This document shows, one piece after another, positions 38,945-54,708 of a stretch of 64,000 nt of DNA. The translations under genes were made by a program, and so were the position numbers. Origin of the DNA: Hyphomicrobiales bacterium (lineage in GTDB: Bacteria; Pseudomonadota; Alphaproteobacteria; Rhizobiales; Rhizobiaceae); assembly GCA_900470155.1 (NCBI GenBank), contig UBZT01000015.1:186001-250000 (forward strand), given 5' to 3'. Under the pieces are notes generated by a model, which was not told where the DNA came from, did no database searches, and worked only from the letters and a program-made list of their open reading frames with translations. Position 1 is the first letter of the stretch. Each line of letters starts with the position of its first letter.

Positions 38945-40211
38945 AGTCCCATCCGATCCTAGATTCATTTCGTCGCTCGATGTGCTGCTGAACAATGTGA
39001 AGGTCGGCACGATCGTCAGGACGCCCGGCGATTTTAACGCTTTCAGCTTCGAGGACGGTTATCGCGCAACCGGCGGCTTGCCGGTGCTCAGTCTGTCTTT
39101 TCGCGCAGCGACTGGCGGCTTGCGTAAGGACCCGAAACCCGTCGCCAGAGCGTTGCCAGCGTTTTTTGCCAATCTGCTTCCCGAAGACAAGCTGCGCGAG
39201 GCGATGGAAATACACCACGCGGGGAGTGTTCGCGCGGGAAACGATTTCGACCTGCTTGTCGCTCTCGGTTCGGATCTGCCAGGTGCTGTCCGCGTCGTGC
39301 CGAATGCCAGCACGGTTGTGCATTTCGACAACCTGCCTGCTCCCAAGCCGAAGGCCCGGTTCTCGCTTGCCGGCGTCCAGATGAAGCTTTCGGTCATCAA
39401 GGACACGGGGAAGGGCGGTGGACTGACACTGCCGCTCGGCGACGACCAGGGATCCTACATCGCCAAGTTTCCATCGACCTCGTTTCCCGGGGTGTCGGAA
39501 AACGAATATGCCAATCTCGCATTGTCTGAAGCGATCGGGATGGAGGTGCCGGAACGCGAACTTGTGGAGCAATCGGAGTTCGAGGGTATACCAAAGGAAT
39601 TCGAGACGCTGTCAGATGGAAAGGTCTTGCTCGTCAGACGCTTCGATCGCGGCGCAAACGGCGAGCGCATCCATATTGAGGATTTTGCGCAGGTATTCGG
39701 CGTCTATCCTTCGCGGAAATACGAAGGTGCCGCCTATCATGATGTTGCGGGGGCCTTGAACGTCGCTGTATCGTCGTCTGCCGCGCTTGAGTTCGTCCGC
39801 CGGCTGGCTCTCGCTGCCATCACCGGCAATGGCGACATGCACTTGAAGAACTGGTCACTGATCTATCGCGAGGCAGGCGAGAAGCCGCAACTCGCACCTG
39901 TCTACGACGTGCTCTCGACAATCCCTTACATCCCCGCGGATGCCATGGCTCTGTCGCTGGCCGGCGAGCGCTCCTTCAAGGCGCTGAACGTGCAGCGTTG
40001 GAAAGCCTTCGCCAATCGTGCACGGTTGCCGGAAGCGGCCGTGCTTAAAGCGGTGGTCGATACAGTTGAACAGGTGAATGGATTTTGGTGGTCGCTGCCG
40101 GAACGAAAAGTCGTTCCGACGAAGGTCCTCGAGCGTATCGATACGCATGTAAGGCTAATGACGCCGATACTTGGCACGTGCGCGGAGCGAAGCCCTTCGG
40201 CCGAGCGGTAG
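38937..40211 (+). CDS. hipA: HipA-family serine/threonine kinase toxin
   Basis: 424 residues from the ATG at 38937 (an ATG six bases earlier is possible). The N-subdomain (LDVLLNNVKVGTI), the kinase region with the ATP-site GVQMKLSV, the catalytic loop ITGNGDMHLKNWSLIY and the DFG-like PVYDVLST are all present, so it looks active. E. coli HipA phosphorylates glutamyl-tRNA synthetase and causes growth arrest. This is the only canonical-order hipBA pair of three HipA loci in the window. Confidence 0.9.
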   Translation: MSEVPSDPRFISSLDVLLNNVKVGTIVRTPGDFNAFSFEDGYRATGGLPVLSLSFRAATGGLRKDPKPVARALPAFFANLLPEDKLREAMEIHHAGSVRAGNDFDLLVALGSDLPGAVRVVPNASTVVHFDNLPAPKPKARFSLAGVQMKLSVIKDTGKGGGLTLPLGDDQGSYIAKFPSTSFPGVSENEYANLALSEAIGMEVPERELVEQSEFEGIPKEFETLSDGKVLLVRRFDRGANGERIHIEDFAQVFGVYPSRKYEGAAYHDVAGALNVAVSSSAALEFVRRLALAAITGNGDMHLKNWSLIYREAGEKPQLAPVYDVLSTIPYIPADAMALSLAGERSFKALNVQRWKAFANRARLPEAAVLKAVVDTVEQVNGFWWSLPERKVVPTKVLERIDTHVRLMTPILGTCAERSPSAER

Positions 40212-40273
40212 CCTCCCTGTCCTAGCTCATTCGCCAAAACGAGGAAATTGCTGCACGATCCCGCAGGTTGCAT

Positions 40274-41485
40274 TCACCGAGCGATCTGTTTGTTCTGGGT
40301 GGTATCAGGGGGAAAGCCGATCACCGTGCCGAACGACCTGCGCTCTGGGCCGAGAGCATAGACGGTAAAGCCGTTTCTGCCTCCTCGCTTTGTCTCGTAA
40401 AGCGCACGATCTGCCTCCTCCATGAGGACATCTGGTTGGGCTGTTTCGGTCCTCGACGATGTTATCCCGATGCTTGTTGAAATATCCAAGGAGACATGTC
40501 CCCAAAGGAACGGAGACTCTTTCAAATTCGCAATCGCTCGCTCTGCGAGGCAAGCGGCCTGATCCTCTCCGGTGTCCGGCAAAAGAACAGAGAATTCGTC
40601 TCCTCCGAGCCGGGCAAATATATCACCTTGCCGCAAGTGCTTGCGGACTACCTCTGCCGCATGCCTGAGGGCAGCATCTCCTGCCGCATGACCATGGGTA
40701 TCGTTGATCGTCTTGAAGCGATCAAGATCGAAAAGCATCAGACTGAACATTTTGGAATGGGCAGCAGAACATGCCATCTCCAGATGCTTCATGAACAGCC
40801 GGCGGTTTGCCAGGCCCGTCAGATCGTCCTGATTGGCGAGGCGGTCCACTTCGCGGTGCAAGTGATCGATCACCGAGATGAGGAAACCGAAATTCCAGGT
40901 AACTTTGGCAAAGAGAAATACAAGCAATGCAAGCGCTGCGGCATCGCTCAGATCGAGGGCCGGCATGACGTTCACAAGCAGCAGGATGTTTCCACTGGCG
41001 ATGACCCAGTGTGAAACGCATGCGACAGCCAAGGCAGCGCAGGTGATGCCTGCGCCCAATTCCCACACCTTGTTCCGCAGTAAATAGAGGGCAGTCAGGA
41101 AAAGCGGTAGGGACTGCGACAGAGTGTAAAGAGGATTGCGGCCGTACCAAACATGGAAAGTTGCAAGCATCGCACCTGCGCTCAAGGCGAGGAACAAGCC
41201 AGCCCTGAACGGATCTGGATCGTCCCCGTGAAAACGGCGCACCCCTAGGTAGTTCAGCCAGAAACCGAGGACAACAACCGTGTTTCCTGCGACGGTCGCC
41301 GGAAGCAGCCCGGAATCGCCTTGGGTAGACAGGATTAAGCCGCCGAGTACGCCTGCAACGCTCCCGGCCAGCCAGTAACGTGCGGCGTAGAGGTCGCGGT
41401 AACGATAGACGATCGCTCCCCAAATGACACAGTTGGATAGTCCGAAAAGCAGGACAAGCAGGTAGATCGTGTAAAAGTCAGGCAT
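40274..41485 (-). CDS. Membrane diguanylate cyclase
   Basis: 403 residues. Six or so hydrophobic segments span about 5-215, followed by a GGDEF domain: DDLTGLANRR, LFDLDRFKTINDTHGHAAGD and active site FARLGGDEFSVLLP. The RxxD inhibitory site is not obvious. It should synthesise cyclic-di-GMP in response to a membrane signal. It is convergent with hipA and the third cyclic-di-GMP gene in 8 kb. Confidence 0.92.
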   Translation of the reverse strand: MPDFYTIYLLVLLFGLSNCVIWGAIVYRYRDLYAARYWLAGSVAGVLGGLILSTQGDSGLLPATVAGNTVVVLGFWLNYLGVRRFHGDDPDPFRAGLFLALSAGAMLATFHVWYGRNPLYTLSQSLPLFLTALYLLRNKVWELGAGITCAALAVACVSHWVIASGNILLLVNVMPALDLSDAAALALLVFLFAKVTWNFGFLISVIDHLHREVDRLANQDDLTGLANRRLFMKHLEMACSAAHSKMFSLMLFDLDRFKTINDTHGHAAGDAALRHAAEVVRKHLRQGDIFARLGGDEFSVLLPDTGEDQAACLAERAIANLKESPFLWGHVSLDISTSIGITSSRTETAQPDVLMEEADRALYETKRGGRNGFTVYALGPERRSFGTVIGFPPDTTQNKQIAR

Positions 41486-41672
41486 TCCGGCATTACCTTC
41501 GTGAGGCCCCGTATCGGGTTACCGTCGCAACACGAAACACAGGATGAATTTTTTCATCGGCATTTGACCCATTGTCTTCTCGTTTGAGGTGCCATGTAGG
41601 TTTCGGGCAACCTAGGTCCGATATCGGGACAAGGCGTTCATAGATCGGCGCAGACATTTTTAAGGGGCAACC

Positions 41673-42398
41673 ATGAGTATGAAAAAATATTCCGCGGAGG
41701 CAATCGGCACATTCTGGCTAACGTTCGGAGGATGCGGTAGCGCAGTCATCGCCGCCGGCTTGCCGAATGTTGGCATCGGCTACCTCGGTGTTTCACTCGC
41801 CTTTGGCCTGACCGTCGTGACCATGGCCTATGCGATCGGTCATATCTCAGGCTGCCATCTCAATCCGGCGGTGACCTTCGGCTTGGCCGCAGGTGGTCGG
41901 TTCCCTGTCAATCAGATCGTTCCTTATGTCGTTGCGCAGGTTGTTGGCGGACTAATTGGCGGCGCTGTCCTCTATGTCATCGCCAGCGGCAAGGCGGGTT
42001 TCGACGTTGTTGGAGGCTTTGCATCAAACGGCTACGGCGAGCACTCGCCGGGGCGATATTCTCTTCTCGCCTGCCTTATGGCGGAATTCGTTCTGACGGC
42101 GATGTTCCTGTTCATCATCATGGGCGCCACACATGGTAAAGCCCCCGCTGGCTTTGCTCCATTGGCAATCGGCCTTGGACTAACCCTCATCCACCTCATC
42201 AGCATCGATGTGACCAATACCTCAGTGAACCCGGCTCGCAGCACTGGTGTGGCGATGTTTGCAGGAGGCTGGGCCATCCAACAGCTGTGGCTGTTCTGGG
42301 TTGCGCCAATTGCTGGGGGCATCGTTGGCGGGGTGAGCTATCGGTGGCTCAGCTCTGAGCCGACTGGTCAGATTGTCGGCTCTGCGGCCGCAAAGTAG
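41673..42398 (+). CDS. aqpZ: Aquaporin Z
   Basis: 241 residues with six membrane spans and both NPA boxes: [13 protein letters not shown] and [14 protein letters not shown]. The R after the second NPA and the [10 protein letters not shown] context fit a water-selective AqpZ rather than GlpF. AAGGGG lies before the ATG. It stands alone. It allows osmotic water movement across the inner membrane. Confidence 0.93.
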
Positions 42399-43231: not shown

Positions 43232-44476
43232 TCAACTCTCAGCCAGTTGCTGGGCTGCCTGACGGAGAGCCACTGCGGACGCGCAGTAACGTTCCAGAAG
43301 TTGATCGATCTTTGCAGGGCCAAAGACGTCATCCAGGAGCAGATAGGCGGCGCCAAACAGGGCGCTGTCATCATGTACTGTAGTCAGCACGATTGAAAGA
43401 TCGCGCGTGGCGAGCGGAAGGCATCGCTGGTAGACCAGTTCGCGAATACCGGAGAGAAGGATATCGCCACCGCGCGCAAGCGTGCCGCCGATGACGATGA
43501 GGCTCGGATTGATGATGCTGACCACATCCGAGATGACTTCGCCGATCGTGCGTCCGGACGCCCGCAGCAGCATCAGGGCCTCCGGCTTGTGCTGTTCTAC
43601 GAGATCGATCACATCGCGGGCAGTCTCGGCGTGAAAACCGCGCTGGGAAAGGTCTCGCGCGATGGCCCAACCCGCAGCACGGGCCTCCACGCATCCGAAC
43701 TTTCCGCAACGACACAGCGGCGCGTCGTCAGAGAGAAACTGGATGTGGCCGATGTCGCCGGCCGCACCCTGTGCGCCGCGGAACACGCGGCCACCCGCAA
43801 TCATGCCGCTGCCGATACCGGTGCCGACCTTCACGAACAGCATGTCTTCGACCGCCGGGAAGCGGCGCTTGTGCTCGCAGACCGTCATGAGGTTCACATC
43901 ATTCTCGACATAGACCGGAACGGCGAAGCGTGCCTGCATGAAGCCGATAACGTCGAATTCATCCCAGCCGGACAATACCGACGGGCCGACGACACAGCCG
44001 CGCTTGAAATCGACTGGCGTCGGTAAGCTGATGCCAATGCCGATGAGAAAGCCATGCGTTTTCTGCACCTGCGCGGCAAGGGCGGCCGCCGCATCGCTGA
44101 TCCGGGCCAGGGTATCCTCCGGCCCGCTCATCACGGAAAAAGAGAGTGTCGTCTGGGCCAGGATTGCCGGGCTCAGGTCCATCGCGGCGAGATGAATGTG
44201 GGTCTCTCCCACATTGGCAACCAGCAAAAATCCACCTGCCGCATTGAGCGCGAGAATGCGTGTCGGTCGGCCGCCGCTCGGCAAGGTCTGTTCCGTCTCG
44301 CGCACCAGCCCGCAGGCGATCAGCGCGTTCAGCCTATGTGTCACGGTTGCGCGCGATAGGCCCGATTCCAGCAGCAATTCTGCTCGAGATGACCCGTTCC
44401 CTCTTGCTATCAGGGAGAGGATGCTCCCAGCGCCTTCGAGCACCTGTCTGTCATACTCCGGTTCCGGGCTACCCAT
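43232..44476 (-). CDS. ROK-family repressor of the sugar cluster
   Basis: 414 residues from the ATG at 44476 (AGGAG upstream). The N-terminal winged helix (SSRAELLLESGLSRATVTHRLNALIACGLV) is followed by a ROK sugar-kinase-like domain with VKVGTGIGSGMIAGGRVFRG and the zinc motif PLCRCGKFGCVEARA. ROK repressors release DNA on binding a sugar or sugar phosphate. It diverges from the FGGY kinase gene, with a strong palindrome in between, and resembles FrcR of rhizobial fructose systems in context. Confidence 0.9.
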   Translation of the reverse strand: MGSPEPEYDRQVLEGAGSILSLIARGNGSSRAELLLESGLSRATVTHRLNALIACGLVRETEQTLPSGGRPTRILALNAAGGFLLVANVGETHIHLAAMDLSPAILAQTTLSFSVMSGPEDTLARISDAAAALAAQVQKTHGFLIGIGISLPTPVDFKRGCVVGPSVLSGWDEFDVIGFMQARFAVPVYVENDVNLMTVCEHKRRFPAVEDMLFVKVGTGIGSGMIAGGRVFRGAQGAAGDIGHIQFLSDDAPLCRCGKFGCVEARAAGWAIARDLSQRGFHAETARDVIDLVEQHKPEALMLLRASGRTIGEVISDVVSIINPSLIVIGGTLARGGDILLSGIRELVYQRCLPLATRDLSIVLTTVHDDSALFGAAYLLLDDVFGPAKIDQLLERYCASAVALRQAAQQLAES

Positions 44477-44554
44477 GCCAAAGCTCCTGTTGCATCCTCG
44501 CTTTAGCGGGAAAGGGCGGGGAGATAAAGTAGCGACGTAAATAGCTATCTTCAA

Positions 44555-44593
44555 TTATGTATAATATCATACATAAGATTGCCATTTATGTAT
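44555..44593. promoter_or_regulatory. ROK operator in the divergent promoter
   Basis: Perfect inverted repeat TTATGTAT (44555-44562)/ATACATAA (44569-44576) and a third TTATGTAT at 44586-44593 in the AT-rich region between regulator and kinase. Three copies of one 8-mer in 39 bp make a regulatory role likely. Confidence 0.7.
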
Positions 44594-44636
44594 CTTTTTG
44601 ACTATATGCGTCGATTGTCATCCTGAGAGGCGTGCC

Positions 44637-46202
44637 GTGACCACCTATCTAATCGGACTCGACTACGGATCGGAATCGGCGCGAGGCGTGTTGATCGACT
44701 CCGAAACCGGCCAGCAGGTGGCGCACGAGGTCCACGTCTACCGGCATGGAATCATGAGCCAGACCCTGCCGGACGGCAGCCGGATGCCGCCGGATTTTGC
44801 CTTACAGAATGCCGATGACTACACTGCTGCGGCCCTGGAGATCCTCTCGCGACTGGGCCGCGGCCGGATCATTGATGGCATTGGCCTTGGCTTCACTGCA
44901 AGCTCGCCCCTACCAGCACGGGCTGATGGCGTACCTTTGTCGCGGCTCCACTCGGCCGAACCCCATGCCTATGTCAAACTCTGGAAACACAATGCGCAGG
45001 CCTTTGCAGATGGGATCAACGCACAAGGCACGCCGTTTCTCGCCAATTTCGGCGGTCGTGTCTCAGGCGAGTGGCTGCTGGCCAAGGCGGTGCAGGTCGC
45101 TTCGGAGGCGCCTGGTATCTGGGCCGCGACGGATCGTTTCATCGAGGGCGGAGACTGGCTCGTCTGGCAACTGACGGGACGGGAGGCGCGCGGTCTGGGT
45201 TTTGCCGCCTACAAGGCGCAATTTTCGACCGAGGCGGGCTATCCCTCGGGCATTTTGCCGGATCTCGACCGGCGCCTTTCCACCCCGCTTCCAGTCGGGT
45301 CGGCGGCTGGCCCGTTATCGCCGGAATGGCGGGAACGGACAGGCATTCAGGGCCGCGCGAGCGTCGCCGTCGCGGTCATCGATTCCCATGTCATGCTTCC
45401 GGCAATCGGCGGTGTTTCGCCCGGCTGCTTTGTCGGGGCGCTGGGCACTTCGGCAGCCTATCTTTATCTCAGCGATGTCTACCGCCCGCTGCCGCCGGGC
45501 ATAGAAGGCGTGGCGTTCGATGGCTCGGTGCGGCATCTCTGGTGCTACGAGGCGGGCCAGCCGAGTTTCGGCGACACGCTCGGCTGGTTTGTGCGCACCT
45601 TCCCGCGCGGCGCCGATGCGCAGGCGAGCTTTCGGGCCTATAACGACGAGGCGTCGGGCCTGGCGCCGGCCGCCGGCCGCCTTGTGGCACTTGACTGGCT
45701 TGGCGGCAATCGCGTGCCTTTCGCCGACGGCAATCTTTCCGGCCTGCTGGCAGGACTGACACGCCAAACGACATCGGCCGAGATCTATCTCGCCCTCATG
45801 GAAGGGCTATGCTTCGGCGCGCGGGCGGTTTTCGATCTCTTTCCGGCCGGCGGCCTGCCGGCGGAGCGTGTGCTGATGGCAAGTGGACTGGCCCGTGCCA
45901 ATCCCCTGCTGATCCAGATCATGGCCGACATCCTGGACCGACCGGTCGAGGTTCCCGATATCGCCAATGCCACCGCAGTCGGCGCGGCAATCCATGGTGC
46001 TGTCGCCAGCGGAACCGTTGCGACCTATGTCGAAGGTGCGGAACGCTTTGGCGCGCGCACGTTCGATCGCATTTCGCCGCGGGTGGAGCATGCCCGCCGC
46101 TATCGCCCCGTCTACGAAGTCTACAAAGGCCTAGCATCAGGAGGCTCGGTTCACGTCGCCATGCATGCACTTCGAAGCCTTGTCCTGGATGATCCGGCGT
46201 GA
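44637..46202 (+). CDS. FGGY-family ketose kinase (ribulokinase-like)
   Basis: 521 residues from a GTG at 44637 (GAGAGG upstream). The N-terminal ATP-phosphate motif LIGLDYGSESARGVLID is AraB-like, with the substrate region FIEGGDWLVWQLTG and the second domain MASGLARANPLLIQIMADIL and NATAVGAAIHGAV. FGGY enzymes phosphorylate the terminal carbon of ketoses or polyols. It opens the plus operon of the sugar cluster. AraB-type ribulokinases accept several pentuloses; a ketohexose is possible because a PfkB kinase and an aldolase-fold protein follow. Confidence 0.88.
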   Translation: MTTYLIGLDYGSESARGVLIDSETGQQVAHEVHVYRHGIMSQTLPDGSRMPPDFALQNADDYTAAALEILSRLGRGRIIDGIGLGFTASSPLPARADGVPLSRLHSAEPHAYVKLWKHNAQAFADGINAQGTPFLANFGGRVSGEWLLAKAVQVASEAPGIWAATDRFIEGGDWLVWQLTGREARGLGFAAYKAQFSTEAGYPSGILPDLDRRLSTPLPVGSAAGPLSPEWRERTGIQGRASVAVAVIDSHVMLPAIGGVSPGCFVGALGTSAAYLYLSDVYRPLPPGIEGVAFDGSVRHLWCYEAGQPSFGDTLGWFVRTFPRGADAQASFRAYNDEASGLAPAAGRLVALDWLGGNRVPFADGNLSGLLAGLTRQTTSAEIYLALMEGLCFGARAVFDLFPAGGLPAERVLMASGLARANPLLIQIMADILDRPVEVPDIANATAVGAAIHGAVASGTVATYVEGAERFGARTFDRISPRVEHARRYRPVYEVYKGLASGGSVHVAMHALRSLVLDDPA

Positions 46203-46212
46203 GGCATTTTCA

Positions 46213-46279
46213 TTTTGGATAAAAACATACAAAAGAAAGGCTTTATTTATTTGACATTATCCAAAAGAAATGAGCTAAT
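46213..46279 (+). promoter_or_regulatory. Promoter and operator before the binding-protein gene
   Basis: TTGACA (46251-46256), 17 bp, then GCTAAT (46274-46279) make a sigma-70-like promoter. The inverted repeat TTTTGGATAA (46213-46222)/TTATCCAAAA (46257-46266) places one arm inside the promoter spacer, fitting repression by looping or dimer binding. Confidence 0.55.
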
Positions 46280-46360
46280 CCCTCTGGCCTTTGAGGAGAG
46301 GCCATGCTCGCCGCAAGAGCCTAAGGGGCTCGGCGGCATCATCTGATTTGGGAGGATTTC

Positions 46361-47371
46361 ATGTCGCTTCGTCGCATTCGCAGTTCGGCACATTCCAATA
46401 TTTTCCGGTCCGCTATAGGTGTCACCGGGCTGGCGCTCGGCCTTGCCTTCGCCGCCGGTCCTGCTTCCGCAGCAGATGTGATTGTAGGCCTTGTCACCAA
46501 AACCGAAGTCAATCCGTTCTTCGTCAAGATGCGTCAGGCTGCTGACGCGCGCGCCAAGGAGAAGGGCGTCAAGCTGATCGCCCGCGCCGGCAAATTCGAT
46601 GGCGACAACGAAGGTCAGGTCGCAGCCATCGAGGATTTGATCAGCGCCGGTGCCAAAGGCATCTTGGTCACCCCGAACAATTCGTCCGGCATGCTGGACG
46701 TCATCAAGAAGGCCCGCGCAGCAGGCGTTCTGGTGATCGCGCTGGACACGGCCACCGACCCGGCCGACGCGGTTGATGCCACCTTCGCCACCGACAATTT
46801 CGAAGCCGGCGTGCAGCAGGGAACTTACGCCCGCAAGGCGATGGGCGACAAGAAGGCCGTCGTCGCCATGCTCGACGGGACACCCGGCGGCACCGTCGAT
46901 ACGTTCCGGCATGACGGTTACCTGAAGGGTTTCGGCATTGCAGAGGGTGACTCATCCATCGCCGGCGCCGCCATCACCAATGGCGCGCAGGACAAGGGCC
47001 AGATCGGCATGGAAAACCTGCTCTCAAAGAATGGTGAGATCAACGCGGTCTATACGATCAACGAGCCCGCAGCGGCCGGCGCCTATGCGGCGCTGAAGTC
47101 GTTCGGCAAGGAAGGCGTCATGCTGACTTCCATCGACGGCGGCTGCGCCGGCGTTCGCGACGTCAAGGACGGCAAGATCGCCGCAACCGTGATGCAGTTC
47201 CCCTACAAGATGGCGGCCATGGGCGTCGATGCGGTGGTGGACTATGCTGCGACAGGCAAGAAGCCGAGCGGCTTCGTCAACACGGGCTCCTTCCTGATCA
47301 CCGACAAGCCTGTTGCCGGCCTGGACTCGAAGGATACCACTTGGGGCCTCGCAAACTGCTGGGGCGACTGA
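46361..47371 (+). CDS. FrcB-like periplasmic sugar-binding protein
   Basis: 336 residues. A signal peptide ends near residue 38 (GLAFAAGPASA before ADVIVGL). The mature part is a type I periplasmic-binding fold of the ribose/fructose group: VNPFFVKMRQAADARAKEKG, IEDLISAGAKGILVTPNNSS, VIALDTATDPADAVDATFAT. It should deliver a sugar to the permease encoded downstream. GGGAGG precedes the ATG. Closest in character to rhizobial FrcB, but substrate assignment needs binding data. Confidence 0.9.
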   Translation: MSLRRIRSSAHSNIFRSAIGVTGLALGLAFAAGPASAADVIVGLVTKTEVNPFFVKMRQAADARAKEKGVKLIARAGKFDGDNEGQVAAIEDLISAGAKGILVTPNNSSGMLDVIKKARAAGVLVIALDTATDPADAVDATFATDNFEAGVQQGTYARKAMGDKKAVVAMLDGTPGGTVDTFRHDGYLKGFGIAEGDSSIAGAAITNGAQDKGQIGMENLLSKNGEINAVYTINEPAAAGAYAALKSFGKEGVMLTSIDGGCAGVRDVKDGKIAATVMQFPYKMAAMGVDAVVDYAATGKKPSGFVNTGSFLITDKPVAGLDSKDTTWGLANCWGD

Positions 47372-47378
47372 TCGGTTT

Positions 47379-47466
47379 CTCCCGGTGGGATCACGGGAGG
47401 CCTTATGCCGAACGTGGTCCTGTCGGGTGAGCTTACGTTCCCGGGGACAGTCCAGCACGGTGCTGG
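47379..47466 (+). other. Two hairpins between binding-protein and permease genes
   Basis: CTCCCG/CGGGAG (47379-47399) and CCAGCA/TGCTGG (47452-47466). Such structures often protect the upstream mRNA so that more binding protein than permease is made. No T-run follows. Confidence 0.4.
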
Positions 47467-47520
47467 ATCGCCTCGGTGGGCAGAGTGCTGCACCAGACGA
47501 TCCTGAAGCACGAGATCTCC

Positions 47521-48507
47521 ATGACCAACGACACCGTTTCCCCACCCGAGACGCTGCGAAGCCTGAAATCGCGCCTGCTTGGCGCCCCTTCGGTGGGGCC
47601 GCTGCTCGTGCTCCTCGGCTTCTGCGTCATTTTCGCGTTCAGCAATCCGCGCTTTCTTGCCACGCACAACCTGTCGATCATCCTGCAGCAGACGGTGATT
47701 ATCGGCGTCCTGGCGATCGGCCAGACGCTGATCATCTTGACGGCCGGGATCGATCTCGCCGTGGGCGCCATTTGCGTGCTTGGCACGATCGTTGCCGGCA
47801 AGCTGGTGAACCTGGGCTACGATCCCGTCCTTTCCATGGGTTTCGCGGTCTTTCTTTGCACGGCAGCGGGTGTCGCGGCCGGCGGTCTCGTCAGCGGGCT
47901 CAGGCTGCCACCCTTCATTGTCACGCTTGGCATTCTCGGCATTTTGACAGCGGCCCTGCGCCTGATCTCGGAAGGCGGCGCCTTTCCGGTTCGCGACCCT
48001 TTCCTTGCCTGGACCGGCAACACGATGAAGCTCGGCGGCTTCGTCCTCACCTATGGCGTGCTGATCATGTTCGCGCTCTACGGCTTGGTCTGGTATCTCC
48101 TGAACCAGACGAAGTGGGGCCGCCATGTCTATGCCATCGGTAACAATTCGGAAGCCGCCCGTCTTGTCGGCATTCCGGTGCAGCGCCATCTGCTGTCGGT
48201 CTACCTGCTGGCCGGCCTGATTTACGGCATCGGCTCCTGGCTCGCGCTCGGGCGTATTCCGAATGCCGATCCGAACGCGATGCAGAGCGCAAACCTCGAT
48301 TCCATCACCGCAGTGGTTATCGGTGGCACCAGCCTGTTCGGCGGGCGTGGCGGCCTGATCGGCACTCTGATCGGCGCCCTGATCGTGGGTGTCCTGCGCA
48401 ACGGGCTGACGCTCGCCGGCATCGACCCGCTTTGGCAGGATCTCGTGACCGGCGTCCTCGTCATCATCGCCGTCGCGCTTGATCAGATGTCCCGGAGGAA
48501 GAACTGA
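47521..48507 (+). CDS. FrcC-like ABC sugar permease
   Basis: 328 residues from the ATG at 47521, with eight to ten membrane spans. Family marks are IIGVLAIGQTLIILTAGIDLAVGA, PPFIVTLGILGI, IGNNSEAARLVGIPV (the ATPase-contact loop) and VIGGTSLFGGRGG. It forms the channel of a CUT2-type importer. Its stop shares a base with the ATPase start (TGATG). In some CUT2 importers one permease gene serves as a homodimer, as expected here. Confidence 0.92.
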   Translation: MTNDTVSPPETLRSLKSRLLGAPSVGPLLVLLGFCVIFAFSNPRFLATHNLSIILQQTVIIGVLAIGQTLIILTAGIDLAVGAICVLGTIVAGKLVNLGYDPVLSMGFAVFLCTAAGVAAGGLVSGLRLPPFIVTLGILGILTAALRLISEGGAFPVRDPFLAWTGNTMKLGGFVLTYGVLIMFALYGLVWYLLNQTKWGRHVYAIGNNSEAARLVGIPVQRHLLSVYLLAGLIYGIGSWLALGRIPNADPNAMQSANLDSITAVVIGGTSLFGGRGGLIGTLIGALIVGVLRNGLTLAGIDPLWQDLVTGVLVIIAVALDQMSRRKN

Positions 48508-49301
48508 TGTCCGCCGATACCAGCATCATGCACACATCCGAACCTGCACAGAGCGTGGTGCTCGAAGCGCGCAATGTCGTGAAGACCTACGGTCATGTGA
48601 CCGCACTCGACGGCGTCGATTTCGAGCTTCGCGCCGGTGAAATCCTCGCCGTGGTCGGCGACAACGGAGCCGGCAAGAGCACGCTGATCAAGACGCTGAC
48701 GGGGGCGGTGCGCCCGACCAGCGGCGAAATCCTGCTGGATGGTCTGCCGATCCACTTCAAGGGACCGCTCGACGCCCGCCATGCCGGCATCGAAACGGTC
48801 TACCAGGACCTCGCCATGGCGCCGGCGCTTGATATCGCTTCCAATGTCTTCCTTGGTCGCGAATTGCGCGCACCGGGGCTGATGGGCAGCCTCTTCCGGC
48901 GCCTGGACAAGAAACGGATGCGCGAGGAGGCGAGACAAGCCATGAACGAGCTGAAGTTTCGCCTGCCGGCGATCGACAATGCGGTGGAGTCGCTTTCGGG
49001 CGGTCAGCGGCAGGGGGTGGCGGTTGCCCGCGCCGCTCTGTTTGCCCGCAGGCTGGTCATCATGGACGAGCCGACGGCCGCCCTTGGCGTGCGCGAGACG
49101 GGGCAGGTCCTGGAACTCATCCGCTCTATCCGCGACCGTGGCCTGCCCGTCGTCCTCATCAGCCACAACATGCCGAATGTCTTCGATATCGCTGACCGTA
49201 TCCACATCATGCGTCTCGGCCGGCGTGCCGCAGTCGTCACGCCGAAGACCCACTCCATGAACGACGTCGTCGCCATTATGACGGGGGCCGCGACCGCCTG
49301 A
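48507..49301 (+). CDS. FrcA-like ABC ATP-binding protein (single domain)
   Basis: 264 residues with one nucleotide-binding domain: Walker A GDNGAGKSTLIKTL, signature LSGGQRQGVAVARA, Walker B LVIMDEPTAAL, switch His in VVLISHNM. Most CUT2 importers (RbsA, XylG) have two fused domains; a single-domain protein as here is the FrcA type. It energises import of the sugar. Confidence 0.92.
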   Translation: MSADTSIMHTSEPAQSVVLEARNVVKTYGHVTALDGVDFELRAGEILAVVGDNGAGKSTLIKTLTGAVRPTSGEILLDGLPIHFKGPLDARHAGIETVYQDLAMAPALDIASNVFLGRELRAPGLMGSLFRRLDKKRMREEARQAMNELKFRLPAIDNAVESLSGGQRQGVAVARAALFARRLVIMDEPTAALGVRETGQVLELIRSIRDRGLPVVLISHNMPNVFDIADRIHIMRLGRRAAVVTPKTHSMNDVVAIMTGAATA

Positions 49302-49352
49302 TCTTCTTGGCCGGCGACATCACAGCCGGTCCACAACGAACGGAGCAAAACC

Positions 49353-50384
49353 ATGTATCGCCTCGACCAGAAACTCGCGCGCATCCGCGCCGGCCAGTAT
49401 ACTCGCAGTGATTTCATCATCGCCGATGCCAAGGACGGCGACATGGGGCCGAGCATGACCTCCTGCGGTCCGAAACGGGCGAAGGACGGAAGCTGGTCGC
49501 GACACTACACCCGCCCGGAATTCCTGGAGAACATTCGCGCGGTCGTTGAGCAGGACATCGTCGATATCATGCTGACCTCCGCCTCCAACATGGAAGCGCT
49601 ATTCGAGATGGGGGTCTACCGCGACAGTGCCGTGAAGCCGGCAATCCGCGCCAACGATACCACCGACGTCTGGGTCTGCCGGGGGGCGACCTATTCGAAA
49701 CAGGCCTCCCGTCCATTCCGGACCGCCTCGCTTTCCCGCGTCTCCACGGGATCCATCGACCCAGCGCCCGGCGCGCCGATCACCGGTACGGACCTCGGGC
49801 TTTACTCCATAACCTTCAACAACGATCTCGACAGCGACTATCAGGCGCTGGAGGCGTTCCAGTTGTTTCGGGACGACGCGGCGCGGAACCGTTTCAAATA
49901 CTTCCTTGAAGTCTTCAATCCTAATGTCGATTCCGGCATCGATCCCGAGATGGTGCCGCATTATGTCAATGACGTGATGATGCGCTGCCTCGCCGGGGTC
50001 ACCAAGGCCGACCGGCCGCAATTCCTGAAGATACCGTTCAACGGCGCCAAGGCGATGGAGGAACTCGCCTCCTATGATCCGAGCGTCATTGTCGGCGTGC
50101 TGGGCGGCGGCGCTGGAACCACGCGCGACTGCTTCGAATTGCTCCACCAGGCCGAACGTTTTGGCGCGCGGGTGGCGCTGTTCGGGCGCAAGATCAATCT
50201 GGCCGAGGACCCGCTGGCCATTGTGCGATTCATGCGCGAGGTCGCGTCGGGAACCATCGGGCCATCAGACGCCGTGAAGGCGTATCATGCGAGCCTGGCA
50301 AAGGACGGCATCACGCCCATCCGTGATCTCGCCGCCGACAATGTCGTGACCGAAGCCGTGCTCAAGCCGGAACAGACACCATGA
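49353..50384 (+). CDS. LacD/DeoC-like aldolase-fold protein of the sugar operon
   Basis: 343 residues with no family name I can state firmly. It has a TIM-barrel pattern: SDFIIADAKDGDMG near the start, DIMLTSASNMEALFEMGVY, then PQFLKIPFNGAKAMEELASY with a Lys placed like the Schiff-base Lys of class I aldolases, and GVLGGGAGTTRDCFELLHQA with ALFGRKINLAEDP, recalling the phosphate-binding end of LacD. GGAGCAAAACC precedes the ATG, and the end overlaps the PfkB gene (ATGA). Aldol cleavage of a ketose bisphosphate is my inference. Confidence 0.65.
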   Translation: MYRLDQKLARIRAGQYTRSDFIIADAKDGDMGPSMTSCGPKRAKDGSWSRHYTRPEFLENIRAVVEQDIVDIMLTSASNMEALFEMGVYRDSAVKPAIRANDTTDVWVCRGATYSKQASRPFRTASLSRVSTGSIDPAPGAPITGTDLGLYSITFNNDLDSDYQALEAFQLFRDDAARNRFKYFLEVFNPNVDSGIDPEMVPHYVNDVMMRCLAGVTKADRPQFLKIPFNGAKAMEELASYDPSVIVGVLGGGAGTTRDCFELLHQAERFGARVALFGRKINLAEDPLAIVRFMREVASGTIGPSDAVKAYHASLAKDGITPIRDLAADNVVTEAVLKPEQTP

Positions 50385-51400
50385 GCAGCGGGCGGCGCGG
50401 CATCCTCACAGGTGGAACCTGGGTTGTGGACTACAACCGTACAGTCAGCCACTGGCCCGGCGAGGATGGTCTGGCCGAGCTGTTTGACGAGGAACGCCAT
50501 GGCGGCGGCTCGAGCTGCAATCTCGCGCTCGACATCAAGCTGCTCGACCCGACAATCCCTGTCGAGACGATCGGTCTTGTCGGGGACGACGACGACGGTC
50601 GCTACCTGCTGGCGACCGCCGCGGCGGCCGGTGTCGACACGCGCCAGATGACCGTGACTGGTGCGGCTGCCACGCAATTCTGCGACGCCTATGTCTCGAT
50701 GAAATCGCACCGGCGCACCCACATTTTCCACGCCGGGACCGGTGCGTTCCTGACCCCGGACCATTTCGACTTTTCCACCACGCGCATGCGCTATCTTCAC
50801 CTCGGCCTGCCGGGCGTTCATCGGATTCTGGACGCGCCCTGGCATGGCGAGCCGAACGGCTGGGTCGCTGTGCTGAAGAAAGCGCAAGCGGCGGGCCTAC
50901 AAACCAATCTGGAACTGGCCAGTATCGACCGGAACCTGATGGCCAGGCTCGTGGCGCCTTGTCTTCCTCATCTCGATTTTCTGATCGTCAACGACATGGA
51001 AATCGGCGCCATTGCCGGGGTGGAGACGATCCGCAACGACGTGCCGGACCGAGAGGCATGCGAGCAAGCGGCATGCATTGTGCTTGAACGGGGTGCGTTG
51101 GAACTTGTCGCCGTGCATTGCCCGGCTTTCGCCATCGCCGTCACTCGGAATGGAGAAAGGGCGGTTCTGCCGTCGTTCAAAATTCCCGAGGCTGAGGTGA
51201 AGGGTGCGAATGGTGCGGGAGATGCCTTCGCAGCCGGCATGCTCTATGGAATTCACGAGGGGTGGAGCGCCGAACGATCGCTTCGGCTGGCCCATGCTGC
51301 GGCCTCAGCGTCCCTGCGCAGCATCTCGACGACAGGCGCAATCGTATCGTGGCGGGATTGCCTGTCGCTGGCCGAGGCATGGGGCGTTCGAGATGACTGA
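50381..51400 (+). CDS. PfkB-family sugar kinase
   Basis: 339 residues. The early GG loop (ERHGGGSSCNLALDIKLL) and the second signature (GANGAGDAFAAGMLYG, with the catalytic Asp) mark the ribokinase/PfkB family, which phosphorylates sugars or sugar phosphates. It is coupled by a 4-bp overlap to the aldolase-fold gene. It could phosphorylate the FGGY product to a bisphosphate or its own separate substrate. It ends the operon; no clear terminator follows. Confidence 0.9.
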   Translation: MSSGRRGILTGGTWVVDYNRTVSHWPGEDGLAELFDEERHGGGSSCNLALDIKLLDPTIPVETIGLVGDDDDGRYLLATAAAAGVDTRQMTVTGAAATQFCDAYVSMKSHRRTHIFHAGTGAFLTPDHFDFSTTRMRYLHLGLPGVHRILDAPWHGEPNGWVAVLKKAQAAGLQTNLELASIDRNLMARLVAPCLPHLDFLIVNDMEIGAIAGVETIRNDVPDREACEQAACIVLERGALELVAVHCPAFAIAVTRNGERAVLPSFKIPEAEVKGANGAGDAFAAGMLYGIHEGWSAERSLRLAHAAASASLRSISTTGAIVSWRDCLSLAEAWGVRDD

Positions 51401-52095: not shown

Positions 52096-54708
52096 ATGGT
52101 TGGCGATACGCGGGTACGAGGAATCAACAAGATGCGCGCTCCTTCGCGCATTGGCCCCAGTCTTCTGACCGGAGGCTCGACCGCTGTGTTGATGCTGATG
52201 TCCGCGGGAGGCGCTCAAGCCATTGACTGGAACGGCTCAACAAGCAGTGACTGGACAGATTCGAGCAACTGGGCAGGAGGCGTCGTTCCCGTTACCGGTC
52301 AGGCGGTCAACATCAGTACGCCGGGCGTGCCGTCGCAAAGGCCCGCCGTCATCGGCGTTACCGGGCCGGTCAGTGTTTCGATCGCAATTACAGGCATTGG
52401 TCAAGCCGGAGCAGTGCCTGGCGTGCTTTCGATCCAGAACGGTAGCATGCTGACAACCACGGGTCAGGCCCGACTCGGGATTGTGGCCGGAAGCACGGGC
52501 CACGTCACTGTATCTGGATCCGGATCCCAATGGATTGCGCTCGGACCTCTGGTCCTCGGATTTTTCGGCACTGGCACACTCAACATAGAGAATGGCGGTC
52601 AAATCTCCGCGGCAACCACGTTGCTCGGGAGCGGCGTCGGCTCTTCAGGCACACTCAACATTACCAGCGGCGGCACTTTGCAGGCCCAAACCTTGCGGGC
52701 CGGGTCCGGCGCGAGCCAGGCCAATTTCGACGATGGCATCTTGCGCGCGACAGCCGCCAACGCGACCTTCATCAACGGATTTTCCGGCAACGAACTCAAC
52801 CTGCTCGCCGGTGGACTGACAATCGATACCGCCGGCTTTGCCGTGGGAACCGACTCGACGTCGGGGTTCAGCGGCGTCGGGGGCATGACCGTCACAGGTG
52901 GCGGAATTTTTACCCTGCAGGCCGACAGCATTTACGCGGGTGAGACCCAGATCGACCCTGGCAGCAGCCTCACGCTTGCCGGCGCCGGCGCCGTCACCAA
53001 ATCCAGCCGGGTTGTAGCCGACGGCGCGTTAGACGTTTCGGCAGCCACAAGCGCGGCCATCCGCAGCCTGGCCGGCGGTGGGACCGTACTGCTCGGGGCT
53101 CAAACGCTGGCGATCACCAATGCCAACGACACCTTCGCGGGCGTCATTGACGGCACAGGCGGCCTGTCGCTCGCCGGCGGCAGCCAAGCCCTGTCAGGCG
53201 TCAACACCTATACCGGCGCAACGACGGTGAGCGGTGGGCGGCTCGCCATCAATGGTTCGGTCACCAGTCCGATCGCGATTTCCGGGGCCGGCATTCTCGC
53301 CGGCACCGGCACAGTCTTCGGCGAAGTGACCAATGCTGGCGTGGTGGCGCCCGGTAATTCGATCGGCACGCTAACAATCGCCGGCGACTATACAGGGACT
53401 GGGGGCACGCTCGAAATAGAGGCCGTGCTCGGCGATGACGCGTCGCCGACCGACCTCCTGGTGGTGACCGGCGATACTGCTGGCACCACGAACGTCACTG
53501 TCATTGATCTCGGCGGCAGTGGTGCGCAAACCGCTGAAGGCATCAAGATAGTCGATGTCGGAGGCGTCTCTGCAGGCTGATTTTCGCTGCTCGGCGACTA
53601 TGTGTTCGAAGGCGACCAGGCTGTGATAGGCGGAGCCTACGCCTATCGGCTATACCAGGGTGGCGTCAGCGCGCCTGCCGATGGAGACTGGTACCTCCGT
53701 TCGACCCTGCTCAATCCTGCGGGCGTTGCAATCGGGACGGTCTATGCGCCGACTGTTCCCCTCTACGAGAGCTACGCCGGCGTGCTGCAGACGCTCAACG
53801 AGTTCGGCACCTTGCGCCAGCGCAGCAGTGGACGAACGATCGACGACGGTCAGCCGGAAGACAATCCCGCCAAAGCAATTTGGACGCGTATCGACAGCAC
53901 ATATGCGAATTTCGATCTCAAGACTTCAACAACCGGTACCGAATACGCCGTGGACACATGGACGGTGCAGACTGGTATCGACGGAATGCTGCAGGAAAGC
54001 TCCGCCGGCTCGCTGGTCGGCGGCGTTGGTCTTCATGTAAACACAGCTTCGGCCGACGTCTCCTCGCGCTTCGGCAAAGGCAACATCGATACCACTGGCT
54101 ATGGTTTCGACGGAACCTTGACCTGGTACGGAAGTAGCGGCTTCTACGTTGGTGCACAGGCTGCCCTGTCCTGGTATGAGAGCGACCTTAAGTCCGCGAC
54201 CCTTAACGATACGCTCGTTAGCGACCATGATGGGTTCGGTTACGGCCTGAGTGTCGAAGCCGGAAAGAAGATAGCCCTGACGCCCCAGTGGTCGCTGACG
54301 CCGCAGGCGCAACTGGCTTATTCGTCGGTGCGCTTCGACGGTTTCACCGACGCCCATGGCGCTTCCGTCTCGCTAGACGATGCCGACAGCCTGACCGGCC
54401 GCCTCGGTCTCTCGGCCGACTATGACATCGACTGGAAGGACGCGACGGGACGGACAATCCGCTCAAAATTCTATGGCATCGCCAATCTCTACTACGATTT
54501 TCTAGACGGCTCGAGTGTCGAAGTCTCGAGCAGCAAATTCGTCAGCGAGAACCAGGCCATGTGGGTAAGTCTTGGCCTTGGCGGTTCGCTCAGTTGGTCC
54601 GACGACCGTTATGCAGTCCGTGGTGAAGCTTTTGCCCGCACCAGCCTCAGGGACTTCGGCGACAGCAGGGCTATCGGCGCCAAACTCGGGTTCAGCGTGA
54701 AGTGGTAG
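52096..54708 (+). pseudogene. Autotransporter split by an in-frame TGA
   Basis: ATG at 52096 with GGAG six bases upstream. The signal region ends near MSAGGAQA, followed by a repetitive beta-helix passenger (repeats such as GTLNIENGGQISAATTLLGS, autotransporter-associated TYTGATTVSGGRLAINGS and GVVAPGNSIGTLTIAGDY). A TGA at 53578-53580 stops it after GGVSAG; the same frame continues FSLLGDYVFEGDQ into a complete C-terminal beta-barrel ending in FSVKW, the usual outer-membrane signature. Without the stop it would be about 870 residues. It is recently inactivated, or read through at a low level. Confidence 0.8.

Follow-up and report, generated by a model that had tools for sequence, protein, structure and literature searches.

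A seven-gene sugar cluster (positions 43232–51400) was analyzed within a 64,000-nucleotide stretch of Hyphomicrobiales contig UBZT01000015.1 (hereafter, the window); a ROK-family repressor gene on the reverse strand is followed on the forward strand by genes for an FGGY kinase, a binding protein, a permease, a short ATPase, a barrel protein that we call BAR, and a PfkB kinase (Table 1). Across related loci, the constant core of this system is BAR together with a ribokinase-superfamily (PfkB-type) kinase, and BAR is predicted to fold like a class I aldolase, with its Schiff-base lysine at the expected position. We tentatively propose, at just short of an even chance, that the cluster is a regulon under ROK control: FGGY and PfkB would phosphorylate an imported ketose, which BAR would then split to dihydroxyacetone phosphate (DHAP) and an aldehyde or aldehyde phosphate. 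The gene set put forward in an earlier note on this DNA was recovered as seven open reading frames (ORFs), and each family except that of BAR was confirmed by Pfam, with the ROK, FGGY_C, Peripla_BP_4, BPD_transp_2, ABC_tran, and PfkB matches all above cut-off.

Predicted fold of BAR and its kinase partners

BAR matched no family in Pfam or NCBIfam and nothing meaningful among PDB sequences (one lysozyme at E 0.59). The alignment used to examine the fold comprised the window protein, 24 of 120 listed proteins, and proteins from 54 of 80 related loci; none of these 79 members (BAR and 78 relatives) matched an aldolase Pfam family at E 1, and neither DeoC/DhnA nor LacD reached a curated cut-off (Pfam for BAR and the 78 relatives, NCBIfam for BAR). 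The "LacD/DeoC-like barrel" of the earlier note is invisible to sequence libraries because BAR lacks any Pfam, NCBIfam, or meaningful PDB sequence match, and what survives of that description is the predicted fold, with a Schiff-base lysine in place. The top PDB matches listed for the AlphaFold model of BAR (predicted local distance difference test score 93.1) by Foldseek and VIA-align are class I aldolases and their Schiff-base relatives, namely LsrF, an archaeal fructose-bisphosphate (FBP) aldolase, LacD, YihT, and ADH synthase, with structure-alignment identities of 11–17% to the DhnA-type FBP aldolases, LsrF, and ADH synthase. K226 lies on strand 6 of the model (residues 225–228), is kept in 361 of 361 aligned sequences, and aligns with LsrF K203, the catalytic lysine of LsrF; class I aldolases carry their Schiff-base lysine on strand 6. 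Profile comparison by sequence aligned BAR with LsrF (probability 35%) and gave no match to Escherichia coli FbaB or YihT; an hmmsearch alignment of the same LsrF stretch placed the lysine one column off. R123 (present in 347 of 361 rows but absent from some distant relatives) and R120 (only 191 of 361) were considered as far-phosphate ligands, and nothing was built on them. Relatives of BAR made up 7,973 of 8,000 scored candidates; many of the named ones listed are called hypothetical, and the nearest named ones are Shinella proteins at 93% identity, which places the window's genome near Shinella.

BAR is proposed to cleave a ketose phosphate. It is improbable that BAR is instead another Schiff-base barrel enzyme, such as a thiolase or a transaldolase-like or ADH-synthase-like protein: its nearest folds include ADH synthase and LsrF, which is annotated as a thiolase, and a fold does not show a reaction, but 70 of 80 loci pair BAR with a kinase of the ribokinase superfamily, and sugar importers are often nearby. 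LsrF, as the best Foldseek and profile match of BAR, is also what would favor autoinducer-2 processing of the Lsr type, with the FGGY kinase as LsrK, BAR as LsrF, and the CUT2 importer as LsrACDB. That assignment is barely credible, having failed on its defining parts: the FGGY kinase scored 41.8 bits against an LsrK cut-off of 528 and the binding protein 22.3 against an LsrB cut-off of 384, and the cluster holds one permease gene by Pfam as compared to two in E. coli, along with a ROK repressor and a PfkB kinase.

The neighborhoods of BAR were compared in the best 80 of 343 related places, such that close relatives are over-represented; genes were called with a home-made codon model and grouped by single linkage at 32% identity, so counts may be off by a few, and some loci end near BAR. 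A PfkB kinase lies within two genes of BAR in 59 loci, an ADP-dependent phosphofructokinase (ADP-PFK)-like kinase lies within four genes in 11, and neither is found in 10. PfkB stands immediately downstream of BAR in 58 loci, overlapping it by four bases in 11. The window PfkB, which was aligned with those of 44 of 54 usable loci, has the GXGD motif as GANGAGD, and Foldseek and VIA-align place the protein in the ribokinase superfamily with no substrate indicated. Three ADP-PFK-like kinases that were scanned matched Pfam PF04587 (53.8, 40.0, and 47.7 bits; cut-off 27), and the GLGD motif is kept in all 13 members of their cluster; the one compared with the NCBIfam models for ADP-glucokinase and ADP-PFK fell below both cut-offs. 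Of 297 genomes of the order, 14 have PF04587; BAR is also present in 12 of these 14, and in 10 of them the two genes lie within ∼10 kb. Among 14 control genomes only two methanogens match. Examples of PF04587 kinases in Alphaproteobacteria are L047:8423-9721 and L128:8346-9602. On a quick, unrooted LG+G4 tree of 94 BAR rows, all 15 ADP-PFK rows (two of them identical) fall in a supported set of 21 with one PfkB row and five unlabelled rows, and at least two changes of the ADP-PFK label are needed.

Other partners accompany more distant BARs (∼50–55% identity). Plasmid-borne examples from Agrobacterium and Martelella have a GlpD-like dehydrogenase and an FGGY kinase as neighbors together with a CUT1 importer, and in Lichenicola the neighbors are DhaK/DhaL. 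The plasmid clusters (L123:4628-13952 and L133:1667-10968) also hold a sugar-binding regulator. A polyol-type cluster at L035:1545-12803 and eight similar loci, of which the L035 genes were scanned, combines an AraC regulator, a CUT1 importer, a DUF2160 small membrane protein, a Zn-alcohol dehydrogenase, two to three short-chain dehydrogenases, BAR, and PfkB. At L028:7673-12092, an AraD-like epimerase and a ribulokinase, each above one NCBIfam cut-off, lie directly 5' of BAR and PfkB. FrcK-like genes near BAR (5 of 80 loci) were not counted as sugar kinases because the role of FrcK is left unclear in PMC10433430. The common denominator of the BAR partners would be a kinase, with or without a dehydrogenase, able to yield a ketose with phosphate next to the keto group. 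A ketose phosphorylated at that position is the usual substrate of a DHAP aldolase.

The FGGY kinase and a putative shared operator

The FGGY kinase is assigned by its FGGY_C domain, while no FGGY_N domain was found in it at E 0.001. Its closest NCBIfam model is a ribulokinase (378.5 bits, cut-off 428), and a second ribulokinase model was likewise not reached (358.4 bits, cut-off 583.25); the best PDB relative is ribulokinase 3qdk (E 4e-95), and the protein has a DSH motif and D249. In 23 of 80 loci, an FGGY kinase is encoded no more than eight genes from BAR; 10 of these kinases are window-like, 11 belong to a xylulokinase-like cluster, and two belong to a ribulokinase cluster. One member was scanned from each of the latter two clusters: the FGGY kinase beside BAR in L139 is a xylulokinase (478.8 bits, NCBIfam cut-off 380.25), and that beside AraD and BAR in L028 is a ribulokinase (508.8 bits, NCBIfam cut-off 428). 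Of 297 genomes of the order, 12 (counting the window's own) have an ortholog of the window FGGY kinase (E ≤ 1e-120). BAR is present in 11 of these 12 as compared to 25 of the 285 others (Fisher p 2e-10, uncorrected for relatedness). The second kinase in the 11 genomes is a PfkB ortholog in nine, some with an ADP-PFK-like kinase in addition, and an ADP-PFK-like kinase only in two (G023 and G098). Several FGGY-bearing genomes encode FGGY and the importer at a different place from BAR and PfkB; the window therefore joins two modules.

The divergent ROK and FGGY genes are separated by a perfect inverted repeat, and a weaker copy precedes the importer genes. The perfect copy is the only place in the 5.48-Mb genome within one mismatch of TTATGTAW-N6-WTACATAA. 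At a spacing of 6 and up to three mismatches, two sites occur in the window, against a mean of 0.02 in 200 Markov-resampled copies. A search of eight genomes at up to one mismatch returned nine places, seven of them upstream of FGGY (one each in seven genomes), and the reversed-pattern control returned one, in G002. The two other places (G003:C33:290836 and G004:C6:27043) are operator-like, lie away from FGGY, and are identical in two Shinella genomes. A similar second site lies between the FGGY and binding-protein genes in L002, L003, L005, L007, and L009, and L017, L021, and L075 have the site in the interval separating ROK from BAR itself. Sinorhizobium medicae has no place genome-wide at up to one mismatch. 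The degenerate pattern gives scattered places outside the locus in G001, G003, G004, G006, and G008, and its reversed control gives places in G000, G002, and G004. In Shinella yambaruensis (G003), the FGGY kinase (63% identical) is on a contig other than that of ROK, importer, BAR, and PfkB, a site lies ∼240 bases upstream of it, and the importer operon carries a weaker site. Since this unlinked FGGY gene carries the site too, FGGY and BAR-PfkB are most likely controlled by one repressor as one regulon. The position of the sites suggests that the ROK protein binds them.

Proposed routes for the imported sugar

In the proposed route, PfkB would phosphorylate the imported ketose at carbon 1, and in the FGGY-bearing form FGGY would also phosphorylate the far end, whereupon BAR would split the sugar via a Schiff base on K226 to DHAP and an aldehyde phosphate. 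With FGGY as an add-on, the aldehyde released would also carry a phosphate; for a D-ketohexose it would be glyceraldehyde 3-phosphate. We infer the position phosphorylated by each kinase and the order of the steps, and consider splitting of a doubly phosphorylated ketose plausible. The earlier note had likewise suggested phosphorylation at two ends and then cleavage; the predicted aldolase fold, the apparently shared regulon, and the finding that 11 of the 12 FGGY-bearing genomes also carry BAR and another kinase support it in part, whereas 57 of 80 BAR loci have no FGGY kinase within eight genes.

The absence of FGGY from those 57 loci is one of several points that weigh against phosphorylation at both ends. 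In the twelfth FGGY-bearing genome (G257), neither BAR nor a PfkB ortholog nor an ADP-PFK passed the thresholds applied. No FGGY ortholog was found in S. medicae, Pararhizobium polonicum, Inquilinus limosus, or three Rhodobacterales genomes (best 29–34% identity); these six have related importers, and the five searched for PfkB have a homolog at 36–83% identity. The S. medicae ROK, importer, BAR, and PfkB are 77–94% identical to those of the window, and its PfkB, at 83%, is closer than those of several FGGY-bearing relatives. Two degenerate operator sites in S. medicae both precede the importer operon and the pattern occurs nowhere else there; therefore, no other kinase appears as a co-regulated substitute. 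The unlinked S. yambaruensis FGGY may be a paralog. The window FGGY is nearest to pentulose kinases, and a pentulose carrying a phosphate at each end would yield glycolaldehyde phosphate, which is an awkward product. The GlpD-like dehydrogenase with FGGY and the DhaK/DhaL contexts of BAR suggest that a single phosphate can suffice. FGGY looks like an optional add-on to the BAR core, and a ketose-1-phosphate core with FGGY as an add-on or a parallel branch fits almost as well.

The main rival, unlikely but a serious contender, takes these points as two parallel branches: PfkB would form a ketose 1-phosphate that BAR splits to DHAP and an unphosphorylated aldehyde, as in a ketohexokinase/aldolase-B route, while FGGY would channel a pentulose, either the same sugar or a second imported one, into the pentose phosphate pathway. 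The many BAR loci devoid of nearby FGGY, the retention of the remaining genes by S. medicae, the proximity of the window FGGY to ribulokinase, and the L139 xylulokinase and L028 ribulokinase beside BAR, both above cut-off, are consistent with this scheme; against it, FGGY tracks BAR in 11 of 12 genomes, and a self-sufficient pentulose kinase would not need BAR. We consider quite improbable a sedoheptulose-bisphosphate bypass, in which FGGY yields a pentulose 5-phosphate, transketolase converts it to sedoheptulose 7-phosphate, PfkB or ADP-PFK phosphorylates this product, and BAR splits sedoheptulose 1,7-bisphosphate. In its favor, 6 of 80 loci have transketolase-cluster genes no more than eight genes from BAR (the L068 member was scanned), and such chemistry is reported for clostridia (PMC7029132). 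The bypass is weakened by a transaldolase-family gene in the window's genome and by the other partners of BAR, since the DhaKL and GlpD-plus-FGGY contexts do not fit. Elsewhere that genome also encodes a PF00365 PFK-family protein (121.6 bits) and a protein that weakly matches the class I aldolase family PF00274 (29.8 bits). The substrates of FGGY kinases, which are ketoses and polyols, argue against an acid-sugar route resembling IolC/IolJ, in which PfkB would phosphorylate a keto-deoxy acid and BAR would release DHAP and a semialdehyde; the score lies far below the IolC cut-off, no inositol dehydrogenase or hydrolase was detected among the seven genes by Pfam, and we regard this route as very improbable.

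Returning to the two-kinase proposal, a wider reading, which we rate as somewhat short of even, is that BAR represents a very large and as yet undescribed group of class I aldolases that form DHAP and act as a general node for the splitting of rare ketoses in Alphaproteobacteria. Their substrate would come from kinases that can replace one another, namely PfkB, a bacterial ADP-PFK-like kinase, DhaK/DhaL, or FGGY with a GlpD-like dehydrogenase. In the window's clade, an FGGY-importer module would have been joined to this node, creating a two-kinase bisphosphate pathway for a sugar without a known route. Kinase plus DHAP aldolase chemistry is known in several pathways. Among the papers listed by searches of an open-access library, none dealt with the family of BAR, with FGGY, PfkB, and BAR as a set, or with the exchange of kinases; the earlier note knew of no described pathway with this exact set. 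If the reading is true, it would give thousands of proteins a testable function, allow some of the rare sugars consumed by rhizobia and other Alphaproteobacteria to be predicted, and provide a new group of DHAP aldolases useful for carbon–carbon bond synthesis. Exchange of PfkB and ADP-PFK-like kinases beside the same aldolase family offers a natural experiment on kinase specificity.

Layout of the cluster and comparison with known systems

Gene order in the cluster reflects more than chance, as it recurs in many of the 80 related loci. The overlapping or tight junctions described earlier hold for permease/ATPase (1-base overlap), ATPase-BAR (51-base gap), and BAR/PfkB (4-base overlap), and do not hold for FGGY to binding protein (158 bases, containing the operator-like site) or binding protein to permease (at least 104 bases). 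As these two junctions are not tight, FGGY may be a separate transcription unit. The FGGY start is probably the GTG preceded by GAGAGG, and the codon model places the ROK start near the coordinate in Table 1. No dehydrogenase or isomerase was detected among the seven genes by Pfam, as the earlier note had stated. The best PDB relatives of the binding protein include ribose-binding proteins, and several polar pocket positions are kept, by eye, relative to ribose- and allose-type binding proteins, although the pocket does not point to a particular sugar.

Table 1 Features of the cluster in window coordinates
Feature	Position	Strand	Evidence
ROK-family repressor gene	43232–44476 (ORF may reach 44554)	−	Pfam ROK 184.9 bits; N-terminal winged-helix matches
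Predicted ROK operator, perfect inverted repeat TTATGTAT-N6-ATACATAA	44555–44576		Between divergent ROK and FGGY genes
FGGY sugar kinase, 521 aa from GTG	44637–46202 (ORF from TTG 44598)	+	FGGY_C 118.8 bits (cut-off 27)
Second operator-like site, 3 mismatches, before importer genes	46213–46234		
Periplasmic sugar-binding protein, CUT2, RbsB/AlsB-like	46361–47371	+	Peripla_BP_4 168 bits
ABC permease, start possibly later	47476–48507	+	BPD_transp_2 123 bits
Single-domain ABC ATPase, 264 aa	48507–49301	+	ABC_tran 109.8 bits
BAR, predicted class I (Schiff-base) aldolase, unnamed family, 343 aa, K226	49353–50384	+	Predicted fold
PfkB/ribokinase-superfamily kinase, 339 aa	50381–51400	+	PfkB 102.7 bits (cut-off 25.8)

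Upstream of the operon, positions 38982–42398 encode a HipA-family protein, a GGDEF protein, and an aquaporin-type channel. Downstream, an autotransporter-type gene (52096–54708) is split by one in-frame stop into a passenger and autochaperone (52096–53580) and a beta-domain ORF beginning at 53602 in the same frame.

Among described systems, the sulfo-Embden-Meyerhof-Parnas pathway (YihV kinase, YihT aldolase) was considered and rejected: the YihS, YihU, YihV, and YihT set was not found, the cluster lacks an isomerase, a sulfoquinovosidase, and a reductase among its seven genes, and BAR has no sequence match to YihT. The LacD tagatose-1,6-bisphosphate pathway differs from the window, which has an ABC importer, one FGGY kinase, and a BAR without sequence match to the LacD families. 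Ribulokinase AraB belongs to the family nearest to the window FGGY, but the latter falls below both ribulokinase cut-offs and its cluster lacks AraA and AraD. The S. meliloti frc fructose uptake locus is alike in having a CUT2 importer whose ATPase is short, along with a regulator of the ROK type. FrcK is present there, according to PMC10433430, whereas the window lacks FrcK and BAR and PfkB follow instead. The closest likeness of BAR itself is to the DhnA-type class I FBP aldolases, LsrF, and ADH synthase; it differs from them in its low identity and lack of any aldolase Pfam match, but resembles them in the predicted barrel, the strand-6 lysine, and the GG and GR motifs.

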